Part shown: positions 7,077-56,629 of the stretch, piece after piece
Position numbering within the stretch: position 1 is the first letter of the stretch
Layout: every line of letters starts with the position of its first letter
Assembly (NCBI RefSeq): GCF_040450955.1
Contig: NZ_CP144373.1
Location: forward strand, 1,654,486-1,718,485
Direction of reading: 5' to 3'
Source: Thermodesulfovibrio sp. 3907-1M
Lineage (GTDB): Bacteria > Nitrospirota > Thermodesulfovibrionia > Thermodesulfovibrionales > Thermodesulfovibrionaceae
Length of the DNA stretch: 64,000 nt
Made by a program: the position numbers and the translations under genes
Notes under the pieces: generated by a model
What the model was told of the DNA's origin: nothing
The model's input: the letters and a program-made list of their open reading frames with translations, nothing else
The model's database searches: none

Positions 7077-7100
7077 GTTCTCCTCCTTTTATATAAGAAA

Positions 7101-7160: not shown

Positions 7161-7171
7161 GAAAACATTTT

Positions 7172-7177
7172 ATCATA
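7172..7177 (-). promoter_or_regulatory. -10 box candidate for the nickel operon
   Basis: The minus strand reads TATGAT here, which would start transcription near 7165, just before the 17-bp hairpin. A -35 box is weak (TTCTTG about 16 bp upstream). The placement is inferred from spacing only. Confidence 0.45.
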
Positions 7178-7261
7178 CAAGAGATCAGGATTGCAAGAAA
7201 AATCTTGCAAAAATATAAAAGGTGTAATTATCATAAAAAATTACAGCAACTGGAGGGCAGA

Positions 7262-8611: not shown

Positions 8612-8636
8612 TTTCAACCTGACTTTCTTGGAACAT

Positions 8637-13442: not shown

Positions 13443-13531
13443 TAAAATATTTTAGCTTATTTTGCATTTAAAAGCTTTAATGTAAACATAAAATTTTTTT
13501 ATTTGACCAAAAAAGTGCAACTATTTTACTG

Positions 13532-13560
13532 TTGATAGACACTAAAATTTGTGGTATAAT
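13532..13560 (+). promoter_or_regulatory. Sigma-70-type promoter of the dsrAB operon
   Basis: TTGATA (13532-13537), a 17-bp spacer and TATAAT (13555-13560). This is the best consensus match in the window. The predicted start is near 13567, giving a leader of about 23 nt that holds the dsrA ribosome-binding site AGGAGG. Confidence 0.82.
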
Positions 13561-13589
13561 TTTAAAAAATCTTAAAGCAGGAGGAAACT

Positions 13590-14800: not shown

Positions 14801-14827
14801 CTAACTAAATAAAAGGAGGTAAGAATT

Positions 14828-15928: not shown

Positions 15929-15930
15929 AT

Positions 15931-15965
15931 AAGAAGGAGGGGATTACCCTCCTTCTTAATTTTTT
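15931..15965 (+). terminator. Intrinsic terminator between dsrB and dsrD
   Basis: A perfect 11-bp stem (15931-15941 with 15947-15957), a 5-nt loop and then AATTTTTT. It follows the dsrB stop by 2 bp and precedes dsrD by 21 bp, so it should lower dsrD output relative to dsrAB or stabilise the dsrAB message. Confidence 0.85.
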
Positions 15966-15986
15966 ACGAAAGGAGTGTGATTTTAA

Positions 15987-16211
15987 ATGGAGAAAGAGGA
16001 ACTCAAAAAAGCAATATACCAACTAATCGAGCAGTCAGCCGGCAAGAAGAAATACAAGCAGGCAGATGTAATAAAGCATTTCAGACAGCAGGGTATTCCT
16101 GATGCAGAAACAAAAGCAGCAATAAGAGAGCTTATTGACTCAGGAGAGTTGATTTATACCTACTTTGGTGGAAGCTATATAGAACTTGGAGAAAAACGCA
16201 AAGGTGCTTAA
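15987..16211 (+). CDS. dsrD: DsrD, activator of dissimilatory sulfite reductase
   Basis: A 74-residue winged-helix protein: MEKEELKKAIYQLIEQ, then KKKYKQADVIKHFRQQG, AAIRELIDSGELIYTYFGGS and YIELGEK. Length and order match DsrD, which binds DsrAB and stimulates sulfite reduction. AAAGGAG precedes the ATG. It lies after dsrAB as usual, but a strong terminator separates it from dsrB. Confidence 0.93.
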   Translation: MEKEELKKAIYQLIEQSAGKKKYKQADVIKHFRQQGIPDAETKAAIRELIDSGELIYTYFGGSYIELGEKRKGA

Positions 16212-16490: not shown

Positions 16491-16961
16491 ATGAGTTCCT
16501 TGAATAAAATTGCTTCAGATATTGTCAGAAAGCTCAAAGAAAAACAAAAAACTTTTTCAACAGCAGAATCTTGCACAGGAGGTCTTATTGCATCATCAAT
16601 AACAGAGATTCCTGGTGCAAGCAAAGTTTTTCTCGGAGGAGTCGTTGTTTATGCAACTGAGATGAAAAAAAGGATTTTAAAAATTCCTGATGAAGTGTTT
16701 CACTACGGAGTTATTTCAGAAGAAATGGCAGAAGCAATGGCAAGAGCGATAAAATCAATCACTGTCTCAGACTATTCAATTTCCACAACAGGAAATCTCG
16801 GACCTGATACAATGGAGGAAAAGCCAAAGGGATTAATCTATATTGCTGTTTCAACACCAGAAAAGCTCTGTATTAAGGAACTTAATCTTACAGGTGATAG
16901 ACTATCAAATAAAATAAAAGCAACAGAAGAAGCATTAAAGTTGCTTGAAGAAATGTTATAA
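16491..16961 (+). CDS. pncC: Nicotinamide-nucleotide amidase (CinA C-terminal domain)
   Basis: A 156-residue stand-alone CinA C-terminal domain. It has the catalytic region STAESCTGGLIASSITEIPGAS, then VVVYATEMKKRIL, GVISEEMAEAMA, and TTGNLGPD with PKGLIYIAV. The enzyme hydrolyses NMN to nicotinic acid mononucleotide in pyridine-nucleotide salvage. The length fits the PncC form without the N-terminal molybdopterin-like domain. ATG 16491 has no ribosome-binding site but lies exactly at the predicted transcript start. Confidence 0.9.
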   Translation: MSSLNKIASDIVRKLKEKQKTFSTAESCTGGLIASSITEIPGASKVFLGGVVVYATEMKKRILKIPDEVFHYGVISEEMAEAMARAIKSITVSDYSISTTGNLGPDTMEEKPKGLIYIAVSTPEKLCIKELNLTGDRLSNKIKATEEALKLLEEML

Positions 16962-16968
16962 TTAAAAT

Positions 16969-17198
16969 ATGAAAATTAACGAGCTTATTTCAGAAAAAGA
17001 ACTCAAAGAAATTGTTTTAAATGAATACAGAAGAAAATATGAAAAAAAGTATGGAATGACATTTTTTGAAAAAGAAAATATCGTAGAAAAGAGAAATTTC
17101 TCATGGGATGTTGAAAAGGATGCAATGCAGTGGGAACATGCTATTGAGTCATTAAAAGTTCTTTCAGATAAAATTAAAAAGATTGAAGAACTAAATGA

Positions 17199-17202
<4 letters not shown>
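16969..17202 (+). CDS. Small unknown protein, charged helical
   Basis: A 77-residue protein not recognised by family. It is rich in Lys and Glu, mostly helical in character (ELKEIVLNEYRRKYEKKYG, then HAIESLKVLSDKIKKIEEL), with no membrane segment or cysteine. It starts 7 bp after pncC. A TATAAT at 16957-16962 would place a transcript start exactly on this ATG. Its stop overlaps the next small gene in an ATGA junction, which supports real translation of both. Confidence 0.6.
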
Positions 17203-19399
<2,197 letters not shown>

Positions 19400-33130: not shown

Positions 33131-34429
33131 TTAAAACCCTATATCCCTCAGGCTTCTTGGAAATTGTCTTAGTGATTCTAAGTCTGTGCCTGCTGCAATT
33201 TTTAATGCTTCCTGTATGAAACTTTTAAATGTGCTTTTTACTTGTTCAAACTTCTCTTTTAGTACGGGCTCCAATCCATGGGCAAGTATGGAGTTGTTTC
33301 TCAATTTGAGGCATTCAAGAAGTTCTTTTTTTCTTTCCAGGTAAAGTTTTCCTAAATCGTCATCCATATGAGCGAGGAGTTCATAGCTCTTTGCAAGAGC
33401 AAGCTTGACTATGCCATCTTCGCTATTCTTTTCACACTCTGTTTGCAAAAATTGCAAAGCCTTCTCATTAAGTTTAGGAAGCTCATTACATTTTATGTTT
33501 GAATTATCTATTCCGTGAGAATTTAACCTTAGCTGTGCTATCATCTCAATTGCTCTGTAGTATCTGGCAATAGAGTCATCAAACTTACTCTGTTCAGCCC
33601 TTCTTTCAGCATTCATAACAAGGTCAATAACTTTCTCATAACCATGACAGGATTTTTTCCCGAGAATTTGCTTTAGACAGAGATAATAGTTGATTATTGC
33701 TTTGTGACAAGAACTGTCCTTTGGAAGGGCTTTAATTATTCTGTCAAACTCTTCAAAAGCAGACTGATGGTGAAACTTATCCCATAAAACAAATGCATTA
33801 AGTATATCCTTTAATCGCATTATTTCGTTTTTTGTTTCCACAGGCAGGGAAGCTTTAAGATAGTTTTTCGCTTTTTCAATGATTTCCTCGTAATAGTACT
33901 TATGCATTAAAGTATCAAAGTATTTCCTGTCAATTCTGTAAAGAAGATTTATCTTATTTATTGATGTTGGAAAGTCTCCGCTGTCAATTTTAATAAGGTT
34001 TGTTCTCTGGGCAGTATTAAGTTGAAGCTCCCAACCATCCTGAAGAATACTAAGAATCACCAGTGCTGCACTCATGGTTTTTGTCCCTCCAGTGTAGTTT
34101 GCAATGACTCTGATACTTTGTTTGTCTGGAAACCTCTCATTTAGTCTGGAGAGCAAATCTTCTTCAAGCTTTTTAAAGGTTTCATTTAGGTCATCTATAA
34201 TGTCCACATCAAGAGTTATTTTTTCATAGTCTTCTTTTGAAAGATTGCACTCTTTTGCGATAATTTTATCCCCTTCTTTCAAGGGCTTACCATCAACCAG
34301 TCTTTCCGATGCTACATCAGATTTTCCAGAGGAACAGATAAAATAAACGAAGTCAAACTTCTCTTCTATTATGGAGTTTATAATGGGCACAGTGCTTCCA
34401 CCAACAGTGAAAATTCCTATTGTTTTCAT
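33131..34429 (-). CDS. CARF-HEPN CRISPR accessory protein (Cas02710/TIGR02710-like)
   Basis: A 432-residue protein. The N-terminal CARF-like domain has IGIFTVGGSTVPIINSI, FVYFICSSGKSD and RVIANYTGGTKTMSAALVIL, where the T-G-G-T-K-x-M loop is the cyclic-oligoadenylate-site motif. The C-terminal helical region has LECLKLRNNSILAHGLEPV, containing an R-x6-H HEPN RNase motif. It is expected to be an RNase switched on by cyclic oligoadenylate from Cas10, as for Csm6/Csx1; activity is inference. ATG 34429 with GGGGGT upstream is preferred over 34441. It lies about 9 kb from the CRISPR array. Confidence 0.82.
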   Translation of the reverse strand: MKTIGIFTVGGSTVPIINSIIEEKFDFVYFICSSGKSDVASERLVDGKPLKEGDKIIAKECNLSKEDYEKITLDVDIIDDLNETFKKLEEDLLSRLNERFPDKQSIRVIANYTGGTKTMSAALVILSILQDGWELQLNTAQRTNLIKIDSGDFPTSINKINLLYRIDRKYFDTLMHKYYYEEIIEKAKNYLKASLPVETKNEIMRLKDILNAFVLWDKFHHQSAFEEFDRIIKALPKDSSCHKAIINYYLCLKQILGKKSCHGYEKVIDLVMNAERRAEQSKFDDSIARYYRAIEMIAQLRLNSHGIDNSNIKCNELPKLNEKALQFLQTECEKNSEDGIVKLALAKSYELLAHMDDDLGKLYLERKKELLECLKLRNNSILAHGLEPVLKEKFEQVKSTFKSFIQEALKIAAGTDLESLRQFPRSLRDIGF

Positions 34430-34608
34430 GTTTACCCCCATATACTTTTGTTTAATTTTTTTATAAACAATTATATCAAATACTGTTTAGAAACTCACCA
34501 GAGTTTTGCTTGAGCAGTTACTTACTCAAGACATGATTTAGAAGGTTTTTATGGCAAATTTAATGATACTATGATAAAATGGAAAAAATAAGCTTATGGA
34601 GGTGGAAG

Positions 34609-43350: not shown

Positions 43351-45278
43351 GTCGCAATCCCTTTTAAATGAGGTCAAGTTTCCTACAAAATTGTTGATTT
43401 ATAGATATGGCGTAAACTTGACAGCGTCGCAATCCCTTTTAAATGAGGTCAAGTTTCCTACTAAGCAGGTTTTTAGACATCCTGTTAGGACGGTATGTGT
43501 CGCAATCCCTTTTAAATGAGGTCAAGTTTCCTACGTGTAAAATGGTAACTATGGCTTTCTTATTAGAGATAAGTCGCAATCCCTTTTAAATGAGGTCAAG
43601 TTTCCTACGAGTAGGTTTTTCCCTTGATCACCCCAAAGGCAAGTCGCAATCCCTTTTAAATGAGGTCAAGTTTCCTACATGGGTTCAGGGATAAGGTTGG
43701 CGGGTATGTGTTTTCGTCGCAATCCCTTTTAAATGAGGTCAAGTTTCCTACGATAACATGGAAAGAGAACTTTTAAAAAATTTGTTGGTCGCAATCCCTT
43801 TTAAATGAGGTCAAGTTTCCTACACAACTTATGCAAAAAGATTGAAGGAATTATGTCCGTCGCAATCCCTTTTAAATGAGGTCAAGTTTCCTACCATATG
43901 CAACATTTATCGAATTTTGCCAGAATTCTGCGAGTCGCAATCCCTTTTAAATGAGGTCAAGTTTCCTACTCATTTAAAAGCAAGACAGAATTTTCATTTT
44001 TGATTGACGTCGCAATCCCTTTTAAATGAGGTCAAGTTTCCTACTCCTATTTTTTAAAAGGGATAACTATTAACTATTCACAGTCGCAATCCCTTTTAAA
44101 TGAGGTCAAGTTTCCTACTTAACAGGTAACAAAGATGTTGGACCGAGCATGCTGTCGCAATCCCTTTTAAATGAGGTCAAGTTTCCTACTATGAAAAAAG
44201 AAAGGGGGTGCAAGAAGATGAAGTAGTCGCAATCCCTTTTAAATGAGGTCAAGTTTCCTACTTTCTGCGGCAATCAAATTTATGAAGATAATAAAGAAGT
44301 CGCAATCCCTTTTAAATGAGGTCAAGTTTCCTACAAAAACGTAAGGGGGGGAATATGGAAAGAGAAGAGGTCGCAATCCCTTTTAAATGAGGTCAAGTTT
44401 CCTACACACATTATTGGGAAATACTGTCTTGATTTCCAGATAGTCGCAATCCCTTTTAAATGAGGTCAAGTTTCCTACAAAAACGTAAGGGGGGGAATAT
44501 GGAAAGAGAAGAGGTCGCAATCCCTTTTAAATGAGGTCAAGTTTCCTACACACATTATTGGGAAATACTGTCTTGATTTCCAGATAGTCGCAATCCCTTT
44601 TAAATGAGGTCAAGTTTCCTACTTCTTACCTACGGGGGCGTGATTGTATCAGCTCTTGTCGCAATCCCTTTTAAATGAGGTCAAGTTTCCTACGAGATGG
44701 AGGCTTTATTCAAAATTCTTGCAAAGAACGATGTCGCAATCCCTTTTAAATGAGGTCAAGTTTCCTACTTCTTACCTACGGGGGCGTGATTGTATCAGCT
44801 CTTGTCGCAATCCCTTTTAAATGAGGTCAAGTTTCCTACTTTTTGCTTAAACAGAATGTAGTTCGGCAGGGGTATAGTCGCAATCCCTTTTAAATGAGGT
44901 CAAGTTTCCTACGTTAAGGTTGGATGTGGTAAGTGTGGGTGGGTCTGGCAGTCGCAATCCCTTTTAAATGAGGTCAAGTTTCCTACTGGTTCCTCAGGAT
45001 TTGCTTTGCGCAGATCCTGGGGAGGTCGCAATCCCTTTTAAATGAGGTCAAGTTTCCTACGAGAGAAAGAAGGAGGAAAAGATGAGAAAAAGGTTTTCCA
45101 GGTCGCAATCCCTTTTAAATGAGGTCAAGTTTCCTACGATGTCCCTATCTCAAAGAATTACTTGAAGCATTTTAAAGTCGCAATCCCTTTTAAATGAGGT
45201 CAAGTTTCCTACAGAGTTACTAAAAGAATTCTTAAGCATTTTGTCGCAATCCCTTTTAAATGAGGTCAAGTTTCCTAC
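43351..45278 (-). CRISPR. CRISPR array: 27 repeats of 36 bp, 26 spacers
   Basis: The 36-bp repeat reads on the + strand gtcgcaatcccttttaaatg and continues aggtcaagtttcctac; all copies look identical. Spacers are 30-41 nt, mostly 35-39. The repeat reversed ends in GGGATTGCGAC, giving an 8-nt 5' crRNA handle AUUGCGAC like the AUUGAAAC type, so transcription is leftward with the leader at 45279 and beyond. Spacers 14 and 15 recur as 16 and 17, and spacer 18 recurs as 20, leaving 23 unique. Cas6 should process the transcript. Confidence 0.98.
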
Positions 45279-45593
45279 TGAGTCGGTTACTTTTTTTCTT
45301 ATTTTTCAATAAGTTATAAGGAAGGTTGTGCAAATTTTTTAATACATTTCTATCACCGATTAAGTCAAAAAGTGTTATTAATGCAAGATTTTTAATGTTC
45401 TTAAAATCAAGATTTTTTAACAAATTTCCACTCCCTTAAAGTAAAGCTCGCATTGTCAAAGATCAGTATTTTTAAAATTAAAGCATACAGTTGTTGAAAA
45501 AGTCAACTTTAAATAATTCATCATCAGATTGCCGAGAGAAACAGGTAGTAAAAATTCAAAGTTCAAGATTAAAAAAAGCAAATAATTTAAAAA
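45279..45593 (-). promoter_or_regulatory. CRISPR leader region
   Basis: This 315-bp AT-rich stretch lies between cas2' and the array with no coding frame. It has short direct repeats, gcaagatttttaatg near 45383 and tcaagattttttaac near 45408, with a weaker third near 45562. Position, base composition and crRNA orientation mark it as the leader holding the promoter and the integration signals. A weak promoter (TTGCAC, 16 bp, TATTGA) lies about 25 bp from the first repeat on the minus strand. Confidence 0.65.
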
Positions 45594-45869
45594 TCACATA
45601 AAAACCTCCACTCCATCGGGAATTTTAGCTCCACAACCCAGCACCGCAACCAGTGAATCTTTAGAGAGCGGATAAATTCGCACATCATCGTATTTTGGAT
45701 GAATCAGTTTTTTCAGATTATCTTTTAAATTTCTAAGCTCATGAATTGTAAGAACACAATAAAAAACAGAGTATTGAAGATGGAGTCCTTTCCCTTTCAT
45801 TAATTTGTAAATTCTTGCAAGTCTTTTTTCATCAGCTATGTCATAACATACAAGATAAGGTGCTTTCAT
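45594..45869 (-). CDS. cas2: Second Cas2 protein (Cas2')
   Basis: A 91-residue protein with the Cas2 fold: YLVCYDIADEKRLARIYKLM holds the first-strand aspartate, then LQYSVFYCVLTIHEL, and PKYDDVRIYPLSK. It differs strongly from the other Cas2 at 47589-47867. Cas2 forms the central dimer of the spacer-integration complex. The start overlaps the divergent cas1 stop in an ATGA junction, so the two are a coupled pair. It is the last gene before the leader. Confidence 0.9.
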   Translation of the reverse strand: MKAPYLVCYDIADEKRLARIYKLMKGKGLHLQYSVFYCVLTIHELRNLKDNLKKLIHPKYDDVRIYPLSKDSLVAVLGCGAKIPDGVEVFM

Positions 45870-46660
45870 TTTCTTAGATCCTTCATTATTTCAAAAAATT
45901 CATCAATAACAGTTTCAGCAAGTTGAAAGATGCTTTCCCTTCTTGATTCAAATCTGTCAATTATGCTTTTTATATTACTCTCTGAAAGTTCATTATTTTC
46001 AATTTTTACACTGTTGGACTGGAAGAACTTTATTGTTTGAAGATCTGCCTCTGGTTCAAAGATCAGTGAAAGATCAAGTAATAATCCAAAATTAACTCTT
46101 CTGTTGATTATTCCAAAGTGAGGATCTAATCCTGCATTAAGGATTCTTCCTAAAATTATTGCTCTGATAAAGTTTTCAACTATATCTTTTATCATGCTCC
46201 ATGTGGCGTATCTCTGGCCAATTTTATTGATTATAAACTGATAATTTCCCTCGCCAATCTCATCTGGAAGACGGAATTTTTTAAATATTTCTCTTAAAAT
46301 CTGCATCTGCATCATGGTCTTTCTTGTCTGAATCCATTTTCTGTATCGCCTTTGTGTATCTTCTGATTGAATAATTATCCTTTGCTCTTTATAATGCCTG
46401 GGAAGTTTATGATTGTATGGTAAAATAAAAGCTTTTTCTGTATTTCCTTGTGAAATAAAAAGCAATGGTATGTTATTGTCAGCGCAAAGAGTAATTGAAT
46501 CAGCATCAATTCTAATATTGCCGATTACTACAACTTTATCAATTGCATTTACAGGAATTCTTCGTGCCGCCTTATTTCGAGAGGTTATCAAAAGCGAGGG
46601 TCCATCGGCATGTAAATTTATTCTGTTTCCTCGTTCAATCAGATATAATGTCCTTTGCAT
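45866..46660 (-). CDS. Divergent second Cas1 (Cas1'), catalytic histidine replaced
   Basis: A 264-residue Cas1-like protein. The N-terminal beta domain is clear (YLIERGNRINLHADGPSLLI, then VVVIGNIRIDADSI and ADNNIPLLFISQGN). The C-terminal helical domain has RILNAGLDPHFGIINRRVNF and LLLDLSLIFEPEADLQ. At the catalytic histidine (GFYH in the neighbouring Cas1) it has GIIN, and the G-I-E-G glutamate helix is shortened or absent. It is about 50 residues shorter than normal, so it is probably not a nuclease. ATG 46660 with AAGGAGG is preferred; it overlaps cas1 by 26 bp. Confidence 0.85.
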   Translation of the reverse strand: MQRTLYLIERGNRINLHADGPSLLITSRNKAARRIPVNAIDKVVVIGNIRIDADSITLCADNNIPLLFISQGNTEKAFILPYNHKLPRHYKEQRIIIQSEDTQRRYRKWIQTRKTMMQMQILREIFKKFRLPDEIGEGNYQFIINKIGQRYATWSMIKDIVENFIRAIILGRILNAGLDPHFGIINRRVNFGLLLDLSLIFEPEADLQTIKFFQSNSVKIENNELSESNIKSIIDRFESRRESIFQLAETVIDEFFEIMKDLRK

Positions 46661-47588
46661 CAACTATCCTCCTTGCAATGGCTCTTAAGGTGTCTCTTAA
46701 TTTTTGCCTCATTGGCTGTGCCCATTGCTCATAAAGAGGATAAAACTTTTTCCTACCTGATTTTTTCAGATAAACTCCTCCTTGTGTCATATCTTTCATA
46801 AAATCTCGCGCAGTAATATGCCTTTCTTTGAAAAGTTCATATACGAGTCTGTCAACATCAACTCTGAACATTTCCACAATGTCACAGGCAAGAGATTCCC
46901 TTCCATATTCAAACTGATGATAAAAACCAATTGTAGGGTCAAGTCCGATAAGTTGAATCTCTCTTACTGTTTCATAATGAAGCAGAGTATAGCAAAAGCT
47001 AAGCATGGCATTTACAGGATCCAGTGGAGGTCTGCGTGTTCTTTTTGTAAAGCCATATGAGTTTGGATATAGCTTTGTATATATTGAAAAATAAAGTGCC
47101 TGTGCTGTGCCTTCAATGCCTCTCAATGAGTCAATGGATAAGGCAGTTTTGACTGAATTAATTTTATTTTGTAAGTTTTCTATAGTTTCTGTCACATGCA
47201 TTGAAAGAATAGGTTTGATATTTACTATTTCCTTCAAAAATTCAATATTTGATGAGATTTTCTTCTCCACAATCTCTTTTGCCAGTTTAAGAGCAAATTC
47301 ATTAGTTGATTTTTCATACTGTTTTACTCTTAAAAATCCATTATTATGCAATGAGCCATAAATTGTGCCAATATATTTAAGTTTTCCAGTAAAAAAAACT
47401 ACTGTAACATTATTTTTTATCAACTTATGAATTACAGTTGTTTGGAGTTTAACATTTCCGACTATTACAACTCTTTTTAAGGGAGTAATAGGAAGACTTC
47501 CTTCTTTTTTCCCTCTGTAGTAAAATTCAATTGAGTTTCCATCGGTTTTTAAATAGATGTCCTTTCTATCTATGAAAACTGTGCCCAT
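46635..47588 (-). CDS. cas1: CRISPR integrase Cas1
   Basis: A 317-residue canonical Cas1. The N-terminal beta domain starts GTVFIDRKDIYLKTDGNSI with VVIVGNVKLQT. The catalytic residues are present: glutamate in SLRGIEGTAQALYF, histidine in GLDPTIGFYHQFEYGRESL, and aspartate in ACDIVEMFR. The C-terminus has GGVYLKKSGRKKFYPLYEQW. It inserts new spacers with Cas2. It starts directly at the stop of the first cas2. Confidence 0.96.
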   Translation of the reverse strand: MGTVFIDRKDIYLKTDGNSIEFYYRGKKEGSLPITPLKRVVIVGNVKLQTTVIHKLIKNNVTVVFFTGKLKYIGTIYGSLHNNGFLRVKQYEKSTNEFALKLAKEIVEKKISSNIEFLKEIVNIKPILSMHVTETIENLQNKINSVKTALSIDSLRGIEGTAQALYFSIYTKLYPNSYGFTKRTRRPPLDPVNAMLSFCYTLLHYETVREIQLIGLDPTIGFYHQFEYGRESLACDIVEMFRVDVDRLVYELFKERHITARDFMKDMTQGGVYLKKSGRKKFYPLYEQWAQPMRQKLRDTLRAIARRIVDAKDIISD

Positions 47589-47867
47589 TTATCCTATGTA
47601 AAAGTAAGAAGGGTCTTTTGGTAAGACTGCTATTCCCAGGGTATGCACTGTACAGTGTCCGTCAATTCTGAATATGTGAACTCTGTCTTCATATGGATTT
47701 ATCAGTCTTTTAAGCTTGCTTATAATGAATCTAACCTCTTCAGGTATTAAAAAACATTCATAAACAGAGCGTTGTCCACCGGTGCTGTAGCCTTTGAGAA
47801 AATATCTTATCTGTGCCAGTCTTCGTTCATCAGTTATATCATAGGCTATTATGAATAGACTCCTCAT
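47589..47867 (-). CDS. cas2: CRISPR adaptation protein Cas2
   Basis: A 92-residue Cas2: LFIIAYDITDERRLAQIRYF with the conserved aspartate, then GGQRSVYECFLIPEEV and PYEDRVHIFRIDG. It is transcribed just ahead of cas1, the reverse of the usual cas1-cas2 order, and mirrors the order of the second pair around a central cas1-cas1' block. Confidence 0.95.
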   Translation of the reverse strand: MRSLFIIAYDITDERRLAQIRYFLKGYSTGGQRSVYECFLIPEEVRFIISKLKRLINPYEDRVHIFRIDGHCTVHTLGIAVLPKDPSYFYIG

Positions 47868-47975: not shown

Positions 47976-48869
47976 TCAGATGTCAACTATTTCATATTTA
48001 CCCAGTCCAAAGCTTGTTCCTTTGCCTATATGAAGAATTTCACCAGCTTTCAGAAAAGGTATAAATGGAGCAAGACTGCCTTCATAGGTAATCTCGCCAA
48101 TGACACCACCGAGTTTCATTCTGGTATTTTGCCTTGATGAGTATCTCTCCCAATCATACCAGCGAATGTTTTCGTTTAAAATTCTGACTTTTTCTGCTTT
48201 TTCAATCAATGATTTTACATCAATTTGAGGCGGCTGTTTTCCGCAGTGAAAGTAACAAAGAAGAGTGAGTCTTCTTAGGAGTGAGCGAATAAGAATGTGA
48301 AAATCAAGCTTGTCTATAAGTTTCCGCTCATACTTTATTCTGATGGGAGTAAGGATATGTAAACATAACTTTGTATAATTTTTTTCACTCACTTCTTTAG
48401 GTTGTAGTATCAGGTTTCTAACATTGGTTGATAAAATCTTTGAAATACTGAATTTACCCCTGCCTTTGCCAATTCCCACATACCCAAGTTCTTTAAATGT
48501 AAAAGCAAAATATGGAGCGTAATCTATAGCATCTCCAATGAGTATTACCTTGAAGTTGAGTTCTTCTTCAGGCTGAAACGTATTTTTTCTGCTTAATGGT
48601 GGCTCAAAAATAAAGGGATGAGGAACTTTCTCATACTTATGCATGTTGAGAAACTCAGATGCTCCATCAGATACGGTTTCAAATACATAAGCATAAATGC
48701 ATTTTCCCTTAAGAGGACATTCTACGCAATTATATCGCTTAAGAACGCATGTAATCTGTCGGAAAACATTTCCAAAACCTCCTCTGAAAGCAGAACCCTT
48801 GAAATCTGGCAGTTTTAGCTCGGTTTCAGCTTTTATAGTAAATTCAAGAATTTTATAGTTTATCTGCAT
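47976..48869 (-). CDS. cas6: crRNA-processing endoribonuclease Cas6
   Basis: A 297-residue protein with the Cas6 C-terminal ferredoxin-like domain. N-terminal features are FKGSAFRGGFGNVFRQITC and four cysteines (CVLKRYNCVECPLKGKC). The middle has ELGYVGIGKGRGKF, and the glycine-rich loop near the end is HIGKGTSFGLGKYEI, the hallmark of this RAMP family. It cuts the array transcript within repeats. It overlaps csm5 by 17 bp; a gap of about 108 bp separates it from cas2 and may hold a separate promoter. Confidence 0.9.
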   Translation of the reverse strand: MQINYKILEFTIKAETELKLPDFKGSAFRGGFGNVFRQITCVLKRYNCVECPLKGKCIYAYVFETVSDGASEFLNMHKYEKVPHPFIFEPPLSRKNTFQPEEELNFKVILIGDAIDYAPYFAFTFKELGYVGIGKGRGKFSISKILSTNVRNLILQPKEVSEKNYTKLCLHILTPIRIKYERKLIDKLDFHILIRSLLRRLTLLCYFHCGKQPPQIDVKSLIEKAEKVRILNENIRWYDWERYSSRQNTRMKLGGVIGEITYEGSLAPFIPFLKAGEILHIGKGTSFGLGKYEIVDI

Positions 48870-49950
48870 TTACAACCTCAAGCATAACCCATCCAAAAGG
48901 TATTGTTTGACTGAGATTGTCTGGTCCCTTATCAGTACTGGCAAGCCAGATAGTGGTTGCTGTTCTGTCCCATCTTGAACCTTTTGCTGTTTTTATTTTT
49001 ATTTTTCTTACGCTTTTTATAGTAACAGCCTCTGCACCAGAGTGCTTTCCGATGCGAATAAGAAAATATCTCCTTTTAATAGCATCTATAAATGGCGATA
49101 TATTGGGCATTCTAAAGCCTTTATTTTTACGCAAATCAATTTCACCGTTAAAGATACCAGCGTAATGTGCATGGGCTTTAAGAAGAAGATTAAGAAAGTT
49201 AAGAGGTTCTCTTATACCAGAGTTTTCTAAAGGACTGTCTAAGCTTACATTGCCTCTAAAAATACTGCCTTCAGGAATAACTTCCAGAGGAATTGAAAGT
49301 GCTGAAACAGATGCTCTGAGTTTATTTACATTTATCTGATAGATAATTTTTGTTTTGACCTCATTGATAGGCTCAAAATCTGAAATTTTCAAAAGCCTGA
49401 AAGGATCTGTGGACATTTTCCCTTTAAGAATGCTCTCTTCAAGTTGTTCAGGACTTCTGGGATTGGCATTTTCTATTAGAGCCGTTTTATTTTGTGATTC
49501 TTCAAGTAGTCCTTCAAGATAACCAGTTCTAAGAGAACCCTTTACAGAACTTCCAGGAATCAGAGGTGTTTGTGTATAGGCATTAAAAAAGGTTCTTGGA
49601 ATATCAAATTCGTTGAAATTTCTTAAAATCTTTCCTTCCTCTCTTAATTGCTTTACCTCTCTATATCTTTCAGCTAACTTTTTTGGAATTGGAATAACTC
49701 TGCCATTTATTTTTCCTTTGCAACTGGCATAAAATCTATATAATTCAACAAGAGCTGTGGCTGATAGCTTTTCAGATATTCTTTTGAGTTCCTGCAATTC
49801 TTCATCTGTAAGGTTTTCTATGAATTGCCATAGATTAAAGTGGATCATTGTGCTATTGTCCGTATCTATGACAAACTCTGTAGGTTTATAACTCTCATCA
49901 CAGCCAATGTGAACAGGACTTAATACATGAAGTTTTACTTCGTAAATCAT
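48853..49950 (-). CDS. csm5: Type III-A effector subunit Csm5
   Basis: A 365-residue RAMP protein. It starts MIYEVKLHVLSPVHIGCDES with the typical S-P-V-H-I-G strand, then TPLIPGSSVKGSLRTGYLE (glycine-rich loop) and a C-terminal ATTIWLAS strand and PFGWVMLEV. Csm5 caps the 3' end of the crRNA in the Csm complex and helps its maturation. The start overlaps the csm4 stop by one base. The assignment uses motif order and operon position. Confidence 0.88.
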   Translation of the reverse strand: MIYEVKLHVLSPVHIGCDESYKPTEFVIDTDNSTMIHFNLWQFIENLTDEELQELKRISEKLSATALVELYRFYASCKGKINGRVIPIPKKLAERYREVKQLREEGKILRNFNEFDIPRTFFNAYTQTPLIPGSSVKGSLRTGYLEGLLEESQNKTALIENANPRSPEQLEESILKGKMSTDPFRLLKISDFEPINEVKTKIIYQINVNKLRASVSALSIPLEVIPEGSIFRGNVSLDSPLENSGIREPLNFLNLLLKAHAHYAGIFNGEIDLRKNKGFRMPNISPFIDAIKRRYFLIRIGKHSGAEAVTIKSVRKIKIKTAKGSRWDRTATTIWLASTDKGPDNLSQTIPFGWVMLEVVNADKL

Positions 49951-50879
49951 TATCGCACCTCCACAGGTAAAACCAGGGAGTATCCCTGTGTTACTGTTTC
50001 AGGGACTGTCTTTGAGAGATTTCTTACACTCATGCCGATGTAGGGTTTCTGAGTGTATTGTGCTGGAATTATTACCGCTGCTTCATCAGCAAATATCACC
50101 GGATTTTTGAATGGATTTTTTGACTTTGCAAGGAAGCTTCCATGGCGTCCAAATCTGATAAAAGGAGAAAAGTAGATTTCCTTAACTTCTTCTTTCTTTG
50201 GAACAGAAGGAGCAAGGGTGTATAGGGCATTGAAATTTTGAGAAGCATTTGAAAGCTGAATTTCTTTGCTTTCTATTACCTCAAACTTACCATATCCAAC
50301 AGTTGCATCCTTGCCAAATCCATATTTCCCTACTCTTGATAATGCTTCTTCAAAGGAATCAATGGTTATGTCTTGTCTTATTCCTGCAAATATGGCAAGC
50401 TCACAGTTGAAGTAAAATCTGTCAACCGTGTATGGATTAAAAGGGGGTTCACCTGTTGTGCCGCTAATTCTATTTATGGTGCATCTTGTCTGAGTATCTT
50501 CCTCTATAAAGTTTATTTTTTCGTATTCAATCTCGTTCAGTGGTTTAAGAGGTATTTCAAAGGCAAAGTAGTTTTTGCTCTTTAATTCCTTTCTTTTTTG
50601 CACAAATTCTTCCTCTGTGAGTTTAAAAAGCTTAAACAAAGGCAATGATGGACGTTTCAGATAAATTTTTTCATCTATAAAAGGGAAAGCAGAGGATACA
50701 ATTATAAAGGGATTTTCCTCATAGTCTTTGAGAAGCTCCTTGAGAGGTTTTCCAAAAAGTTGAGGGTCATAAACTGCCTGCCAGCAGAGATGTCCAAAGA
50801 GGCTATCTCCTTTAATAGGGCTTCCAAAGCCTGTTAGAGGTTTTATTTTTACAATATAAGTTTTCAAATTTACCCCCAT
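49950..50879 (-). CDS. csm4: Type III-A effector subunit Csm4
   Basis: A 309-residue RAMP protein: YIVKIKPLTGFGSPIKGDSLFGHLCW, a Csm4-type N-terminus, then NRISGTTGEPPFNPYTVDRF and VGKYGFGKDATVGYGKFEV, the glycine-rich loop. Csm4 binds the crRNA 5' handle and contacts Cas10. The ATG is at 50879, but GGGGG just downstream could serve a TTG at 50867 instead. It overlaps csm3 by 10 bp. Confidence 0.88.
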   Translation of the reverse strand: MGVNLKTYIVKIKPLTGFGSPIKGDSLFGHLCWQAVYDPQLFGKPLKELLKDYEENPFIIVSSAFPFIDEKIYLKRPSLPLFKLFKLTEEEFVQKRKELKSKNYFAFEIPLKPLNEIEYEKINFIEEDTQTRCTINRISGTTGEPPFNPYTVDRFYFNCELAIFAGIRQDITIDSFEEALSRVGKYGFGKDATVGYGKFEVIESKEIQLSNASQNFNALYTLAPSVPKKEEVKEIYFSPFIRFGRHGSFLAKSKNPFKNPVIFADEAAVIIPAQYTQKPYIGMSVRNLSKTVPETVTQGYSLVLPVEVR

Positions 50880-51598
50880 AGCTTTAAAGAGTTAAATTTT
50901 TCCCTTATTTGTTTATCGTAAAATTGGAACTCAATTTTTCCGTATCCACGACTTCCTGAACCTCCAAGAGAGTCCATCTCAAGAAGTTTCAACCCTGTAA
51001 GTAAATAGTTTTCAAAGAGCTCTTCATCTTCATCGTCAAGAATTTTAAAGTAAACTTCAAAATCAAATTTAGCGCCTGCTGGAACTCTCTCAATAAATCT
51101 TGGATCCTTTGCTGTTCCTGTAATGCGATTTATTCTGTTTTCAGATTTTACTTCTATGTAACTCCACTGTTTTTCTTCAGCTTCTTTTTTGAAATCTTCA
51201 CTGAGGCTACAGTCACTGAAAGATACCCTCGTTGGTCCAAACTCTACAAGTAATTCTTCATCAGATGCAGCTGAACCAAATACTTTGAGTATGTTTTTTA
51301 TGTGTTTTTTAACATCGCCGTTTGCTCTTCTGTAAAGTTCGCAGGAGGCAAGACCACCAGATTTTTTGTAATCTTCAGTTTTTGCAGATTCTGCAACAAC
51401 ACCGTAGTAGTATTCAAGAAGACTTCTTATTTTGCCTTTTAGTGATGAGCCAGGAATGTAGGGTTCCTGGGTATGGGGGTGTTTTATCACAGGATTGTCT
51501 GTGCCTCCTATCTGCATTTCCATGTTGCCTGAGCCAATGTGAAGTCCTGTTCTAAGAATTATTTTGCCTTTGATTGTTTTGATTTCCTTTAGTTTCAT
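50870..51598 (-). CDS. csm3: Type III-A backbone subunit Csm3 (target RNase)
   Basis: A 242-residue RAMP protein. It has GKIILRTGLHIGSGNMEMQI, then GGTDNPVIKHPHTQEPYIPG, whose aspartate corresponds to the catalytic residue that cuts target RNA at 6-nt intervals, SSLKGKIRSLLEYY, and a C-terminal loop DSLGGSGSRGYGKIEF. Several copies line the crRNA. The ATG overlaps the csm2 stop in an ATGA junction. Confidence 0.92.
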   Translation of the reverse strand: MKLKEIKTIKGKIILRTGLHIGSGNMEMQIGGTDNPVIKHPHTQEPYIPGSSLKGKIRSLLEYYYGVVAESAKTEDYKKSGGLASCELYRRANGDVKKHIKNILKVFGSAASDEELLVEFGPTRVSFSDCSLSEDFKKEAEEKQWSYIEVKSENRINRITGTAKDPRFIERVPAGAKFDFEVYFKILDDEDEELFENYLLTGLKLLEMDSLGGSGSRGYGKIEFQFYDKQIREKFNSLKLWG

Positions 51599-52023
51599 CG
51601 GCTGCCTCCTTTATCTAATTTTTCATCGTAGTATTTGTAAAAGCCCATGAAGGCTTCAAAAAATTTTACAAAGACATCAAAGTCTCTTTTATTTTTAATC
51701 TGACTTAACGCTTTTTGTATAAACTCTCTAAAATCTTCTGTGATAAGTTTTCTTCCTTCAGCATAATATGCTTTGGCATTAAGAATCTTAATGTAAGGAA
51801 GCATTTTCTGGAATTCTTCCTCGTTTTTTACTCTTCCATGAAAGATTAAAACTTCATCGTAAAACTTTCTAAGCTGGGAAATTTTGTTTCTGTCTTTATT
51901 GTTTTTACCTGCTGTTTTAATTTGCTCTGCCCATTTATTCGCTACCTCTGAGAACAGTTCTGGATTAACAAGACCTTTAACTTCATCTTTCCAGAATTTG
52001 ATTTCTGGTAGTTTAGTATTCAT
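51595..52023 (-). CDS. csm2: Type III-A small subunit Csm2
   Basis: A 142-residue helical protein: MNTKLPEIKFWKDEVKGLVN, then FSEVANKWAEQIKT, and SQLRKFYDEVLIFHGRV. The S-Q-I/L-R-K-F-Y-D/N motif is the Csm2 hallmark. It forms the belly filament against Csm3. ATG 52023 is used because AGGAGGAAAGC precedes it and it overlaps the cas10 stop; a longer in-frame start would lie inside cas10. Confidence 0.92.
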   Translation of the reverse strand: MNTKLPEIKFWKDEVKGLVNPELFSEVANKWAEQIKTAGKNNKDRNKISQLRKFYDEVLIFHGRVKNEEEFQKMLPYIKILNAKAYYAEGRKLITEDFREFIQKALSQIKNKRDFDVFVKFFEAFMGFYKYYDEKLDKGGSR

Positions 52024-54593
52024 GCTTTCCTCCTCATGTAAATTGTTTGCCATAAGGGAATCCTGAAGGATTCCCTGTATTTTTCTATCCAGATTACGAG
52101 TTTTGATAGGACTTCTTCTACTGTTTTAATTCTCTCTTCTCTGTTTTTCCCTTTTGCAATGTTTCTTGTGGCAAAATAATGAAGTTTTGCTCTCCATATT
52201 AGAGGATTAAGTTTTTCATGGATTAATTGTCGTTTCAGTATCTCTTTCTCCTCTTCAGCAAGCTGTCTCAGCTCGTTTAGTTTATACAGGAAAGAAATGG
52301 TTATAAGTTCGTCATCAAACCAGCTTTCCAGTTCCTGTCTAATTTTTTCCAATTCTTCAATACTGCTCCATTCAACAGGACAATTAAATATTGTTATCTT
52401 GTTTTTCCCACTATTTTTTGCTTTTTCCAGTGCTTTCTCTGAAGCTTCAGCCATTTTGAGCACAGGGGTTTCAGGTTGAGTAATATATACTCCTGCTGAG
52501 AGAGTAATTTCACTGTTGTTACAGCAGTATCTGTAAAAATCCTCTGACAGTCTCATTGAAAATCTCGTTATTTCACTCCACGGAGCAATGAGAAAGAGGT
52601 CATCTCCTCCGGCAAAAATTGTATAGATGTTTTTAAACTCTGTTTTACAAAGATATGGTAGATAAAGTGTAAAAAAGAGGTTAAGCTGGCGTGAAAGTGC
52701 TGCATATCTTGAGAAAGTTCTCTTTTCAGGTCTTAATCCTTTAGTAAATATGGTTCCGAGATTATCAATGTCGGCTTTAAAAACTCCCAGAGCATCCACT
52801 CCATTCATCCCCTGCTCTGTTTTCTGTAAAGCAAGTCTTGCGATATGATGAAAGTTAAGAATTGCCTGGTTTTGAATAGCTTCAATAGTTTCTTCTTTAT
52901 CTGATTCTCCATAAGTTATTTTTTCAATCTCATTTTTATATTCTGGGGTAAACCTTGGAACATAGCCGTTTATAAGTTTAATTGAAACAAAATCATCAAG
53001 AATATTCTCATTTTTCCAGAGAGAATTAATGTTCCAGTAATGAATTATTTTGTTCTGTCTTACGAGTTCTGAGAGTCTTCCTGGGAGAAAACTTACCTGA
53101 TACTTATCAAAAACTGGCATTTTTAGTGTTTCGTGAAGTTCTGCATCAGCTGTTGCTACAACAAGAGTATCTTTCTTAACAAGATTTTCCCCAATTTTTA
53201 CGTGATCATGACAGATATCACATAGGTAGTCTTCATTTATTTGATTTTCAAGTTTTGCTGCTCTTCGATTGCAAAGGGAACATACTCCAGCATCGGAAAA
53301 TGTATCAAGATATCTTGCAGTAGATTTAGTGCCTCCATATAGAGTAAGATCTAATTTTTTGAGTTTTCTTTCCTCAGATGCATTTCCAATCGCTCTTAAA
53401 ACTCTACCAAGACTGTCTCCGCTACAAATGAAATCATCTGGTGAGGCTTCAATCCAGCTCAGACCAATGCTTACCTCTCCATAAAAGTTTTTTACAAGCC
53501 AGTGGTTTATTTCATCTTCTGCTTCTTTCACTGCATTAATATGTTTTTCAGTGTTGGGGGCTAAAATTTTGAATTTTCCTGCTGCATTCGTAACAATTGA
53601 TGTGAAAGGTAAGTTTAGTTTGTCAAGGATAAAATCTGCAGCAAGCTCACTTAATAGAGAAACATAAAAGGATCTACCTCTCAGTAATTTTGCTGCATGT
53701 TTAGCAGTAGAGCCACCTTCTGAAAATATAAAATCCTGAATTCCGTAAAAATTTCCCTCAATTAAAAGAAATTTCTTGATATCTCTTGCTTTTATTGAAT
53801 TTTCATCCATTGAATCTGTTGAGAGATGATAAAGATACATGGCAATTGCTAAAGCAGAAGTAAGTCTTCCATGATCATAAAGAGAGATATCTGAAATAAT
53901 CTCTTCAAACCTGCCTTGAGCCTCTTTAAGTGTGGCTGATGGGATCAATGTTGTGAAAACAAAAAGTGCTGAATCAAGATGTTCCATCCAGAGTCTGGGA
54001 GAGTCTTTATGAGGGAGATTCTTAAAAACTTTAACAAATTTCTGATAAAGCTCAGAATAAGCCTGTCCCGTAACATTCTGTTTCTCTATGGGGAAAATAT
54101 TTACGGGAGAAATTTCTCTTACAGGATAGGAAAAACGGAACTCCTGGGAGCTAACTGCTTTCCAGTTTTCGGTAATAGAAATATCCTCAAATATTGACAG
54201 TAAAGGAATCTCCTTTGCTTTTCTCACACTTTCTTCTTTTTCTTCAAATTCTCTTCTCTCGATGCCACTGCTTATGCAATCAGCTTCCTGAATTATTATT
54301 TGTTCTGGAGAATCTGAGTCTGGTCTGTGGTGTTTTGCGCATAGATTTACGATAGAATCTTTTGGAGAGGAATATTCTGTAAATTGGCTAGGAAAGTATT
54401 CGCTCATTTCATCAATAAAGTAAGCTGTATAGAGAGCATGCTTGTGAGTATAATGCCAGTGGGTTTTTGGTTGATATAGTGCTTGATTATTATCTATGTA
54501 TTTCTGTGGTATCTTCAATTCAGCCCTTTCCATGAATTTTCCGATGTCATGCAGCATGCCTGCCAAAGCAATTTTTAAGATTTTAAAGCTCAT
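52020..54593 (-). CDS. cas10: Cas10/Csm1, HD nuclease and cyclic-oligoadenylate synthase
   Basis: An 857-residue large subunit. The N-terminal HD domain has ALAGMLHDIGKFMERAE and a later KHRHP-like AKHHRPDSDSP. A zinc site has CSLCNRRAAK and CDICHDH. The second palm domain has GVFKADIDNLGTIF and IYTIFAGGDDLFLIAPW, so the GGDD cyclase motif is intact. The C-terminal helical domain follows (SSIEELEKIRQELESWFDD). Both outputs, target-activated ssDNA cutting and cyclic oligoadenylate synthesis, are therefore predicted. AAGGAG precedes the start. Confidence 0.95.
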   Translation of the reverse strand: MSFKILKIALAGMLHDIGKFMERAELKIPQKYIDNNQALYQPKTHWHYTHKHALYTAYFIDEMSEYFPSQFTEYSSPKDSIVNLCAKHHRPDSDSPEQIIIQEADCISSGIERREFEEKEESVRKAKEIPLLSIFEDISITENWKAVSSQEFRFSYPVREISPVNIFPIEKQNVTGQAYSELYQKFVKVFKNLPHKDSPRLWMEHLDSALFVFTTLIPSATLKEAQGRFEEIISDISLYDHGRLTSALAIAMYLYHLSTDSMDENSIKARDIKKFLLIEGNFYGIQDFIFSEGGSTAKHAAKLLRGRSFYVSLLSELAADFILDKLNLPFTSIVTNAAGKFKILAPNTEKHINAVKEAEDEINHWLVKNFYGEVSIGLSWIEASPDDFICSGDSLGRVLRAIGNASEERKLKKLDLTLYGGTKSTARYLDTFSDAGVCSLCNRRAAKLENQINEDYLCDICHDHVKIGENLVKKDTLVVATADAELHETLKMPVFDKYQVSFLPGRLSELVRQNKIIHYWNINSLWKNENILDDFVSIKLINGYVPRFTPEYKNEIEKITYGESDKEETIEAIQNQAILNFHHIARLALQKTEQGMNGVDALGVFKADIDNLGTIFTKGLRPEKRTFSRYAALSRQLNLFFTLYLPYLCKTEFKNIYTIFAGGDDLFLIAPWSEITRFSMRLSEDFYRYCCNNSEITLSAGVYITQPETPVLKMAEASEKALEKAKNSGKNKITIFNCPVEWSSIEELEKIRQELESWFDDELITISFLYKLNELRQLAEEEKEILKRQLIHEKLNPLIWRAKLHYFATRNIAKGKNREERIKTVEEVLSKLVIWIEKYRESFRIPLWQTIYMRRKA

Positions 54594-54687: not shown

Positions 54688-55821
54688 TTATTTAATTTTT
54701 ATTTTTCTTCTGTCAACAGCAATACCATAGGTAGTTGCACCATATCGCCTAATAGAGTTAATTTTGCAATGTATAGCTTTATCGGGTAGAGCCTGAAAAA
54801 TTGAATTATTTATTTTGCTTATGTAACTTCTTATAGTGTATAGACTCAGTTTTTTTCTTATTTTTTCCTCTACTTCTTCCGCTGAAACTAAGGCAGGTTT
54901 GTAAGCTTCTGAATAAAACCTGGCAAACCATTTTACCAGAGGCTCCTCTGTAATCTGAATTAGCGATACATAGCAGTCAGTGCAGCTACTACAAACTCTT
55001 TTTCTGGTGCATGAAAGTTTTTGTTGAAGTAATGTGGCATACAGAGCAATGAAAGCTGGATTCAGGGTAAGGCAAACTCCTGCAATTTCCAGTTTTCGCT
55101 CTTTTACATCAAGAATTATTTCAGGCTGAAAGCCTCCAAGATTAATTTCTGATTGAGTCTCCCGTATGAGTTCTTTAAAGTTTTTTCCATGAAACTGAAT
55201 CTTTCCAGAAAACCTTACAAAAGGAAGTTCCATAAGCTCAATTTTTGCTTTCTCTGTGCTTATTTCTTTTATTGTGCCGTCTTGAAGTCTGCACTTTATA
55301 AACTTTTCTTTTTTCGGTTTATAGAAAAACTCTGGATTTGATTCAAACTCTGGTGAAACAAGCACATGATAAAGCCTGTCATGTGGGCGTCCGAAAAGCT
55401 CCATTGCAGAGCCAAGATAAAAGCTCATTGTTTTTCTTCCACCTGTAAGAGAGCAATGAAGTCTTGTAGAACTGTCTTTTGTGAGCTCTTTTATTAAAGA
55501 GATGATTGTGTCGGCTGTTGCCTCGCTATGAGAAGAATCTCTTATGTCCTCAATTTCATTGTCATTTTTATCTTTTATTACAATGACCTGCGAAGGCTTG
55601 ATTTCAACATAAGGGAGATTGTATTCAACGAGAAACTGTTTTAAAATTTCTTTTTTAATCAATGCATTTTCAATCTGTTTCCTGCCAACAGATGTTGTTA
55701 TTATATATATCTCATCAATGTAAACTGGAGGCTCTTTATTGGCGAGAGCATAAAGGGTTTCTGTAATAATCTGAGGAGTTCCACCTATAACACAAACGAG
55801 AATTTCTTTAAATTTTTTCAT
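54688..55821 (-). CDS. CARF-domain CRISPR protein, NE0113/TIGR02584-like
   Basis: A 377-residue protein. The N-terminal CARF-like domain has EILVCVIGGTPQIITETLYA and a ligand loop TRLHCSLTGGRKTMSFYLGSA. Residues about 250-300 have a cysteine cluster (CTRKRVCSSCTDC), and the C-terminus resembles a winged helix (TIRSYISKINNSIFQ, then YGATTYGI). No HEPN or PD-DExK motif is seen. Members are reported as ring-nuclease-like or CARF-wHTH sensors; the exact role here is inferred. It overlaps the next gene upstream by 14 bp. Confidence 0.78.
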   Translation of the reverse strand: MKKFKEILVCVIGGTPQIITETLYALANKEPPVYIDEIYIITTSVGRKQIENALIKKEILKQFLVEYNLPYVEIKPSQVIVIKDKNDNEIEDIRDSSHSEATADTIISLIKELTKDSSTRLHCSLTGGRKTMSFYLGSAMELFGRPHDRLYHVLVSPEFESNPEFFYKPKKEKFIKCRLQDGTIKEISTEKAKIELMELPFVRFSGKIQFHGKNFKELIRETQSEINLGGFQPEIILDVKERKLEIAGVCLTLNPAFIALYATLLQQKLSCTRKRVCSSCTDCYVSLIQITEEPLVKWFARFYSEAYKPALVSAEEVEEKIRKKLSLYTIRSYISKINNSIFQALPDKAIHCKINSIRRYGATTYGIAVDRRKIKIK

Positions 55822-56629
55822 TTGATTCAGCTATAAACAGTAACCCCCTGTTGGTTATCCACAGAGCTTTCTGTGATTCATCGGGTAGTCTTGCTATGAG
55901 TCCGTAAATCTCAAGTCTTTCAATTTCTTCTTCATAGTTTTTTTCCAGTTCTTCATAGTCTCTACTGGTGAAAACTCTTTTTTCTGCTAATTTTTTAAGA
56001 AGTTCAAGCTCTTTTCCTTTTGGAAGGTAAAATAGTTTTGGTAAAAATACAACTTCGTGAAATTCCTCGTTCATATAATAAATCTGGCAGTCTGTAAGAA
56101 TTCCTGCCAGAGCAGTGGCAATTACATGGGCTTTAAGTCCTCCAGTGGGATTGAAAAATACTCTGTAACCCTGTTTCTTTTTTGTATTGGCAAGACAAAT
56201 TAATCTGTCAAGAAGCTCTGAAATGCCGAGCTTAAATTTATCTATGGCGTAAGAAGGTTCATAATACTTTGCCTCCCAGAAATATCCGCTTATTTCATAG
56301 GGTGTATAAATTTCATATCCTGCATCCTTCAGAAACTGCTCAATTGCCAGTCTGCAGAGTTCATTTGATGCAGTTTTTGTGCCGAATAGATAAACTTCAA
56401 TGGAATTCGGGGATTTTCCCTCAACAACCCTTAAAAATGTATTCATCTCAGCAGAGTTTTTCATTGGTGAGCTTTTCAGGAAGTTCACAAGTTTATGAAT
56501 TTCAATGTCAGAATTGAGAAGCTTCTGCCAGTAATCTTCGTCAGAAATTTTTCTCTCAGGAAAAATTCCTGCTTTCTGCGCATTTGTTAAAAGAGATATA
56601 CCTGTACTTATTATGTGAAGCTCTTTCAT
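55808..56629 (-). CDS. CARF-domain CRISPR protein, APE2256/TIGR02619-like
   Basis: A 273-residue protein, first gene of the cas operon. The CARF domain starts MKELHIISTGISLLTN, with VYLFGTKTASNELCRL and the loop VFFNPTGGLKAHVIATALAG. The C-terminal part is winged-helix-like (LKKLAEKRVFTSRDYEELEK, then GLIARLPD). No HEPN motif is visible. Related proteins include archaeal ring nucleases that degrade cyclic tetra-adenylate, so this may be the off switch of the system. Confidence 0.78.
   Translation of the reverse strand: MKELHIISTGISLLTNAQKAGIFPERKISDEDYWQKLLNSDIEIHKLVNFLKSSPMKNSAEMNTFLRVVEGKSPNSIEVYLFGTKTASNELCRLAIEQFLKDAGYEIYTPYEISGYFWEAKYYEPSYAIDKFKLGISELLDRLICLANTKKKQGYRVFFNPTGGLKAHVIATALAGILTDCQIYYMNEEFHEVVFLPKLFYLPKGKELELLKKLAEKRVFTSRDYEELEKNYEEEIERLEIYGLIARLPDESQKALWITNRGLLFIAESNEKI

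Follow-up and report, generated by a model that had tools for sequence, protein, structure and literature searches.

In the known Cas1-Cas2 integrases a Cas2 dimer is flanked by two Cas1 dimers, and within each Cas1 dimer one subunit carries out the transesterification and the other is structural, guiding the DNA. The role of the non-catalysing Cas1 is hard to dissect by mutation because both subunits share one gene. The canonical integrases, such as those of Pyrococcus, Thermotoga, Aquifex and E. coli, are homo-oligomers built from one gene each. In other systems, including Cas1-Cas2/3 of type I-F and Cas1-Cas2-DEDDh, accessory functions have been added to the integrase and asymmetry has been discussed, here brought about by fusions or bound DNA on a homo-oligomeric Cas1. 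In the type I-F Cas1-2/3 integrase, active Cas1 occupies the two ends of the repeat channel, the walls of which are formed by inactive Cas1 (PMC12259127). Finally, the type III Cas6-RT-Cas1 / Cas2 modules partner type III effectors and have a single Cas1 fused to a reverse transcriptase, without a second Cas1.

The cassette described here, cas2-cas1-cas1'-cas2', has the Cas1 fold, the Cas2 family and the placement at the CRISPR leader in common with the canonical integrases, and type III effector partners in common with the reverse transcriptase modules. Unlike any of these it comprises two different Cas1 genes and two different Cas2 genes, with the active site of one Cas1 degraded. It is a heteromeric-looking adaptation module, and as such a variant on the known Cas1-Cas2 theme.

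Within the window (the whole stretch of 64,000 nucleotides analysed), the cassette is bordered on one side by a type III-A operon and on the other by a 27-repeat CRISPR array (Table 1). The locus has the cas10/csm1, csm2-5, cas6 and array of a type III-A CRISPR-Cas system; Csm1 was recognised by TIGR02578 (657 bits), and csm2-5 were identified from position, length and recurrence in relatives. The gene content and order given in the original prediction were borne out by four minus-strand reading frames, of which cas2 and cas1 abut, cas1 and cas1' overlap by 26-29 bases, and cas1' and cas2' overlap by 4 (ATGA). A Shine-Dalgarno-like AAGGAGG lies 7 bases before the cas1' ATG, within the end of cas1, and together with the ATGA overlap this suggests that the cassette genes are probably translationally coupled. 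NCBIfam, Pfam and PADLOC agreed on two Cas1 and two Cas2 identities. Both Cas2 proteins pass PF09827 (58.7 bits for cas2 and 73.2 for cas2', cut-off 23.8) and TIGR01573 (37.7 and 46.7 bits, cut-off 24.5), and they belong to clearly distinct families that are conserved separately, the first with the signature TGGQ(K/R)SVYECFL ... FFYxG at the C-terminus and the second with QYSVFxC ... DDxRIYPL ... PxGV. The cas2' gene adjoins cas1' in the loci examined.

Table 1. Features of the adaptation cassette and its surroundings, in window positions.
Feature	Position	Strand	Details
CARF-domain gene, Cas_APE2256 / ring-nuclease-like	55808-56629	minus	
CARF-domain gene, Cas_NE0113 family	54688-55821	minus	
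csm5, csm4, csm3, csm2, cas10/csm1 (cas6 outward)	48853..54593	minus	type III-A effector genes
cas6	47976..48869	minus	crRNA processing; directly upstream of cassette; PF10040, PADLOC Cas6 356 bits
cas2 (first Cas2)	47589..47867	minus	92 aa
cas1	46635..47588	minus	317 aa; canonical Cas1, presumed catalytic subunit
cas1'	45866..46663	minus	265 aa from TTG / 264 aa from ATG at 46660
cas2' (second Cas2)	45594..45869	minus	91 aa
Leader between cas2' and array	45279..45593	minus	315 bases
CRISPR array	43351..45278	minus	27 repeats

The first Cas1 scores 247 bits against TIGR00287, passing the equivalog cut-off of 71.7, and has the intact glutamate, histidine and aspartate that had been read from its sequence: E159 (GIEG), H224 (GFYH) and D236, with E239 in the same CDIVE motif. 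All four positions are occupied in the same way throughout the cassette Cas1 (40/40) and in a set of 52 other Cas1 of the phylum (52/52). Cas1' scores 55.5 bits against PF01867, above the cut-off of 22.3, and fails the same NCBIfam equivalog cut-off (50.1 vs 71.7 bits). An AlphaFold2 model made with 39 aligned family members as input (pLDDT 90.6, pTM 0.89) led, by Foldseek and VIA-align, to Cas1 structures, the entire chain lying on the Cas1 fold with a Z of 24.4 and an rmsd of 2.6 over 253 residues to Pyrococcus Cas1 (4wj0), and Z of 24.2 and 24.0 to the solved Cas1 structures 4xtk and 2yzs. Cas1' is 52 residues shorter than its neighbour but keeps the N-terminal beta domain and a GLDP motif. 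Fold, motif and a shortening of about 50 residues had all been anticipated, and the sequence alignments found no intact catalytic triad in the window copy.

The equivalents of E159, H224, D236 and E239 in the window copy of Cas1' are D134, N187, D197 and L200, leaving only Asp197 preserved. Profile comparison aligned the Cas1' segment GLDPHFGIINRRV--NFGLLLD with GLDPTIGFYHQFEYGRESLACD of Cas1 in the His/Asp region, and the RRPPxDPVN segment, a Cas1 hallmark, is missing from the window protein. Across the family the corresponding counts are E in 8/40, H in 24/40, D in 39/40 and E in 2/40, and the second acidic residue is absent from nearly all members, as is the RRPPxDPVN segment. At the histidine position 10/40 have Asn, as in the GIIN187 of the window copy; some members have Asp or Arg there, or Glu at the aspartate position, and in a diverged group, found in the same phylum as a Syntrophorhabdaceae metagenome-assembled genome (MAG), the two are Asp and Glu, respectively. 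Mapped on the Cas1' tree, the histidine has changed about nine times and the aspartate once, with the protein retained throughout. The closest relative of the window copy (L037, 69% identical) retains the histidine, so the asparagine is probably recent; the GIIN originally noted in place of the histidine is real in the window but lineage-specific.

The absence of a clear catalytic glutamate helix, also part of the original prediction, is a more delicate matter, as the alignment between Cas1' and Cas1 is at its weakest around the Glu. A GEG resembling GIEG at first sight offers an intact triad; this candidate was rejected, since three MAFFT modes and hhalign all pair Y141 with Y166 and thereby put D134 at the glutamate position. 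One helical turn before the conserved Y141, however, lies E138, a glutamate in 27/40 members and possibly a displaced catalytic acid. The letters E138-H-D are preserved in 18/40, and some members of the family could thus be active. It is for this reason that we grade the window Cas1' as likely, short of proof, to be catalytically dead: the canonical glutamate and histidine have gone as predicted, and the word dead goes further than the sequences of its relatives allow. Its catalytic residues differ from those that define an active Cas1, and we accordingly file it as a Cas1-fold protein. Mean pairwise identity in Cas1' is 47% in the N-terminal, dimerisation-type domain vs 31% in the helical catalytic domain (57% vs 53% in Cas1), a pattern that fits a protein kept for assembly.

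That a Cas1 with a degraded active site has been retained in dozens of related genomes suggests a specialised structural partner of the active Cas1. Given that half of the Cas1 subunits in known integrases are non-catalysing, the simplest reading is that the two kinds of work have become permanently assigned to separate genes, one for the catalytic and one for the structural role. Cas1, with its full active site, would do the chemistry, and Cas1', non-catalysing or weakly catalysing, would take the structural place. The two would most likely pair as a heterodimer through their conserved N-terminal beta domains, with Cas2 and Cas2' bridging such heterodimers, and the resulting complex would insert spacers at the leader end of arrays defined by one particular leader and 36-nt repeat family, serving whichever type III effector (Csm or Cmr) adjoins. 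We consider it reasonably probable, from sequence comparisons, that the cassette is a dedicated four-subunit adaptation module and encodes an obligately heteromeric integrase of this kind, with Cas1 catalytic and Cas1' non-catalysing. A bolder form of the idea, which we offer only tentatively, is that this may be the first obligately heteromeric CRISPR integrase, in which Cas1 alone would do both strand transfers and the asymmetry of the complex, not a PAM nuclease or Cas4, would set the leader-side end of the prespacer.

Among 396 genomes of the phylum, 46 have a full or nearly full Cas1' with an essentially intact frame. A Cas1 search at E<=1e-60 found the cassette Cas1 clade in 44 genomes, and 44/44 also have Cas1'. 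The two further genomes with Cas1' are a deletion remnant in which cas1 and the first cas2 are gone and cas1' is truncated (G075, locus L038), and a locus where cas1 is cut by the contig end (G263, L179). In the gene neighbourhoods the same four-gene order recurs across about 40 loci of the phylum, each in a different genome, which speaks against a chance arrangement. Among annotated loci the order holds in 37/40, the exceptions being one contig edge, one short draft contig and L074, where cas2 is about 12 kb upstream. Loss of the first Cas2 in that genus (g105), which would have pointed to a shared Cas2, was entertained and rejected when a whole-genome search located the gene in three genomes, L074 and two others, about 12 kb upstream, the displacement being due to an insertion that includes a manganese-oxidase-like gene. 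At 74-78% identity to its relative the displaced cas2 is still conserved, an argument that none of the four cassette genes is dispensable. Loss of cas1' alone was seen in zero sampled loci.

The order is also present in MAGs of other phyla. A collection scan added loci titled Deltaproteobacteria, Syntrophorhabdaceae and Deferribacteres, about 8/20 of its loci lying outside the first set; the query was a closer subset of the Cas1' alignment, a single-protein query having given no match. In the phylum of the Syntrophorhabdaceae MAG a member of the Cas1' family occurs in 9/297 sampled genomes. Two loci (L203 and L204) that seemed to have Cas1' without Cas1 were found to have cas1 on the same strand some 3.5-4 kb off; in G422 (L208) the intervening stretch holds a CARF-adenosine-deaminase gene and a CARF gene. 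An Archaeoglobi MAG (L081) was discarded as a true carrier; being the sole such bin among 148 genomes of its phylum, it is probably explained by a stray contig. Even more diverged second Cas1 proteins were found in G198, a III-A locus with the cassette gene order preserved, and in the Cmr locus of G037, where the gene comes after cas1 and before a cas2.

This distribution bears on the possibility that Cas1-Cas2 and Cas1'-Cas2' act alone as two separate integrases, with Cas1' using a remodelled site or doing some other DNA task such as prespacer capture, trimming or handing over. Each Cas1 does have an adjacent Cas2, in mirror order, and the two Cas2 families are distinct and separately conserved; D197 is kept in 39/40 Cas1' and many members have both the histidine and E138. 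Against this, the two pairs are never apart in the phylum sample, the truncated remnant L038 excepted, the catalytic Glu position, the second acid and RRPPxDPVN are lost across the Cas1' family, and the His or Asp position is substituted in some members. On this evidence we regard separate complexes as doubtful, and favour the single heteromeric integrase.

The array in the window has 27 repeats of 36 nt, all identical (GTAGGAAACTTGACCTCATTTAAAAGGGATTGCGAC, read on the minus strand), and 26 spacers of 30-41 nt, 23 of them different. Arrays lie just beyond cas2' in most cassette loci and share one 36-nt repeat family, variable in its first 11 bases, with the conserved part GACCTNANNN(A/G)NAAGGGATT(G/A)(C/A)GAC. 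They reach 103 repeats, and within each cassette-type array nearly all spacers are different. A TGCACAA-like motif is found at -53/-54 in 16/27 leaders of such arrays and in 1.4% of control stretches. Elsewhere in the host genome, near a type I-B operon, is a second array with the window repeat, its leader near-identical to the window leader over the last 70 bases. A shared repeat and leader family together with diverse spacers indicates that the cassette acts on a target sequence of its own and that its arrays grow. The repeat ends are asymmetric; because the conserved 3' end probably doubles as the crRNA tag, this is uninformative on asymmetry of the integrase. An Rfam search of the region gave no match.

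Growing arrays are also relevant to whether Cas1'-Cas2' might regulate or inhibit the integrase or serve as a decoy for it, as the original prediction had in part proposed. A Cas1 that joins the dimer and does not catalyse is dominant-negative by construction, and the active site of Cas1' is indeed degraded. Yet the genes overlap and so are probably co-translated, co-occurrence is strict, with cas1' the only gene lost in none of the sampled loci, and the neighbouring arrays have clearly grown. Cas1' is moreover basic (mean net charge +9), as is Cas1, and neither acidic nor DNA-mimic-like. An anti-integrase, then, finds no support in a basic protein that usually adjoins an array with diverse spacers, and we judge the inhibitor reading improbable.

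Purifying selection acts on all four cassette genes. For cas1', pairwise dN/dS is 0.07-0.17, including pairs without the catalytic letters, and resembles that of cas1, cas2 and cas2'; the exception, 0.38, comes from one very close pair with few changes. Cas1 and Cas1' each form a single clade (support 99 and 100, respectively), from which it follows that, for the loci sampled, the pairing has a single origin, with the caveat that L069 and L073 are on very long branches in the Cas1' tree. Despite the truncated remnant in G075 and the variable catalytic letters on the Cas1' tree, the low dN/dS, the essentially intact frames in 46 genomes, the spread over several phyla and the single origin exclude a sporadic duplicate decaying under relaxed selection. 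The second Cas1 and its private Cas2 are, as originally proposed, retained, and the pair is old.

Strongly supported splits in the Cas1 and Cas1' trees are mostly concordant, with three conflicting pairs. Pairwise distances correlate at 0.68-0.84 within the four cassette genes and at 0.85-0.96 among the csm genes themselves, vs -0.02 to 0.21 between the cassette genes and csm1, csm3 and csm4. The four genes are thus co-inherited, although correlated trees could arise from operon linkage alone, and since they correlate with one another and not with csm, the cassette is a unit exchanged between effectors. At least one locus (L041) has Cmr2 of type III-B in place of Csm1 beside the cassette.

No account of this module turned up in the open-access papers searched for a dual, second, inactive or duplicated Cas1, nor did it appear in the passages found of the 2025 CRISPR classification. 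The initial statement that no characterised system has this arrangement holds to that extent, with the qualification that one PADLOC model, PDLC01185, bears the name "Cas1, diverged variant, second in the loci". The name fits the cas1' gene type and implies that curators had already noticed a diverged second Cas1; no function is attached. As the family of Cas1' the model was rejected, for it gives the window protein 29.8 bits vs 58.1 for generic Cas1, and ten generic Cas1 models score higher. When 148 genomes of the phylum were searched at E<=1e-12 it matched no cassette-family Cas1', its sole match being the far-diverged Cas1' in the Cmr locus of G037 (L191). Of the Cas1 rows sampled beyond the cassette clade, the nearest is that of G062 (L177), which has a related repeat and a cas6 nearby but, unlike the four-gene cassette, an ordinary single cas1-cas2 pair. 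It plausibly represents the state before duplication.

If the two roles do sit in two genes, each subunit becomes separately changeable, and a natural two-gene module would directly test whether asymmetry of the integrase sets spacer orientation. The cassette also illustrates that duplication of an adaptation module can be followed by its specialisation as a unit and by movement between type III effectors. Its frequent occurrence in Nitrospirota-type thermophiles should make stable proteins obtainable for structural studies.

The host genome, a single contig of 1.94 Mb, holds three adaptation modules, the window cassette included. Of the others, one is of type I-B and has a separate cas1-cas2 pair, Cas8b/Csh1 and Csh2 (L035), and the remaining one is of type III and carries a Cas6-reverse transcriptase-Cas1 fusion (L036, G000:C1:318-321 kb).

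The array beside the cas2-cas1-cas1'-cas2' cassette contains segmental duplications: spacers 16-17 repeat the two-spacer unit formed by 14-15, and spacer 20 is another copy of spacer 18. Immediately before the first repeat the leader of this array ends in ACCGACTCA, where many cassette leaders carry GGGGTGCT or a similar sequence. This odd form of the leader end is nearly identical in both arrays of the genome, the second of which contains 10 copies of the same repeat behind a near-identical leader and has as its neighbour a type I-B operon, not a type III one. The same 1.94-Mb genome also holds a third adaptation module, in which a Cas6-reverse transcriptase-Cas1 fusion is accompanied by cas2 and type III RAMP genes.

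Features of the window and of the compared loci
Feature	Locus	Position	Strand
Segmental duplications in array	window	44298-44875	
Leader of array	window	45279-45593	
Stand-alone Csm6-family protein (TIGR02710 CARF, PF09670 HEPN)	window	33131-34441	-
Second array	L035 (own genome, C1:942.6-943.3 kb)	16600-17340	
Cas6-reverse transcriptase-Cas1 fusion	L036 (own genome, C1:318-321 kb)	8402-10933	
Card1-like or Csx1 effector nuclease	L037 (nearest relative)	4384-5535	
Card1-like or Csx1 effector nuclease	L040	5088-6215	
Card1-like or Csx1 effector nuclease	L052	7186-8535	
Cas1' with in-frame insertion	L037	1053-1898	
Partly deleted cassette	L038 (congener)	8203-8936	
Separated cas1 and cas1'	L208	5001-8296	
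Separated cas2 and cas1	L193 (genus g105)	4364-16092	

Altered cassettes were seen in other genomes. In a congener a natural deletion has removed the first cas2, all of cas1 and the 5' end of cas1', the diverged Cas1 gene with a degraded active site, and the remnant adjoins three repeats. An insertion of ~12 kb, carrying a gene for an MnxG-like multicopper oxidase, separates cas2 from cas1 in genus g105, and in one genome outside the window's phylum cas1 and cas1' are separated by two genes, one for a CARF-adenosine deaminase and one for a CARF protein. The Csm6-family gene of the window lies apart from the III-A operon, on the left side of the array at a distance of ~9 kb; the Card1-like or Csx1 nucleases are found near the cassette at the three compared loci, with none in the window. 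Finally, Cas1' of the nearest relative bears an in-frame insertion, CHSERSEES, that resembles the translation product of a dispersed palindromic repeat.
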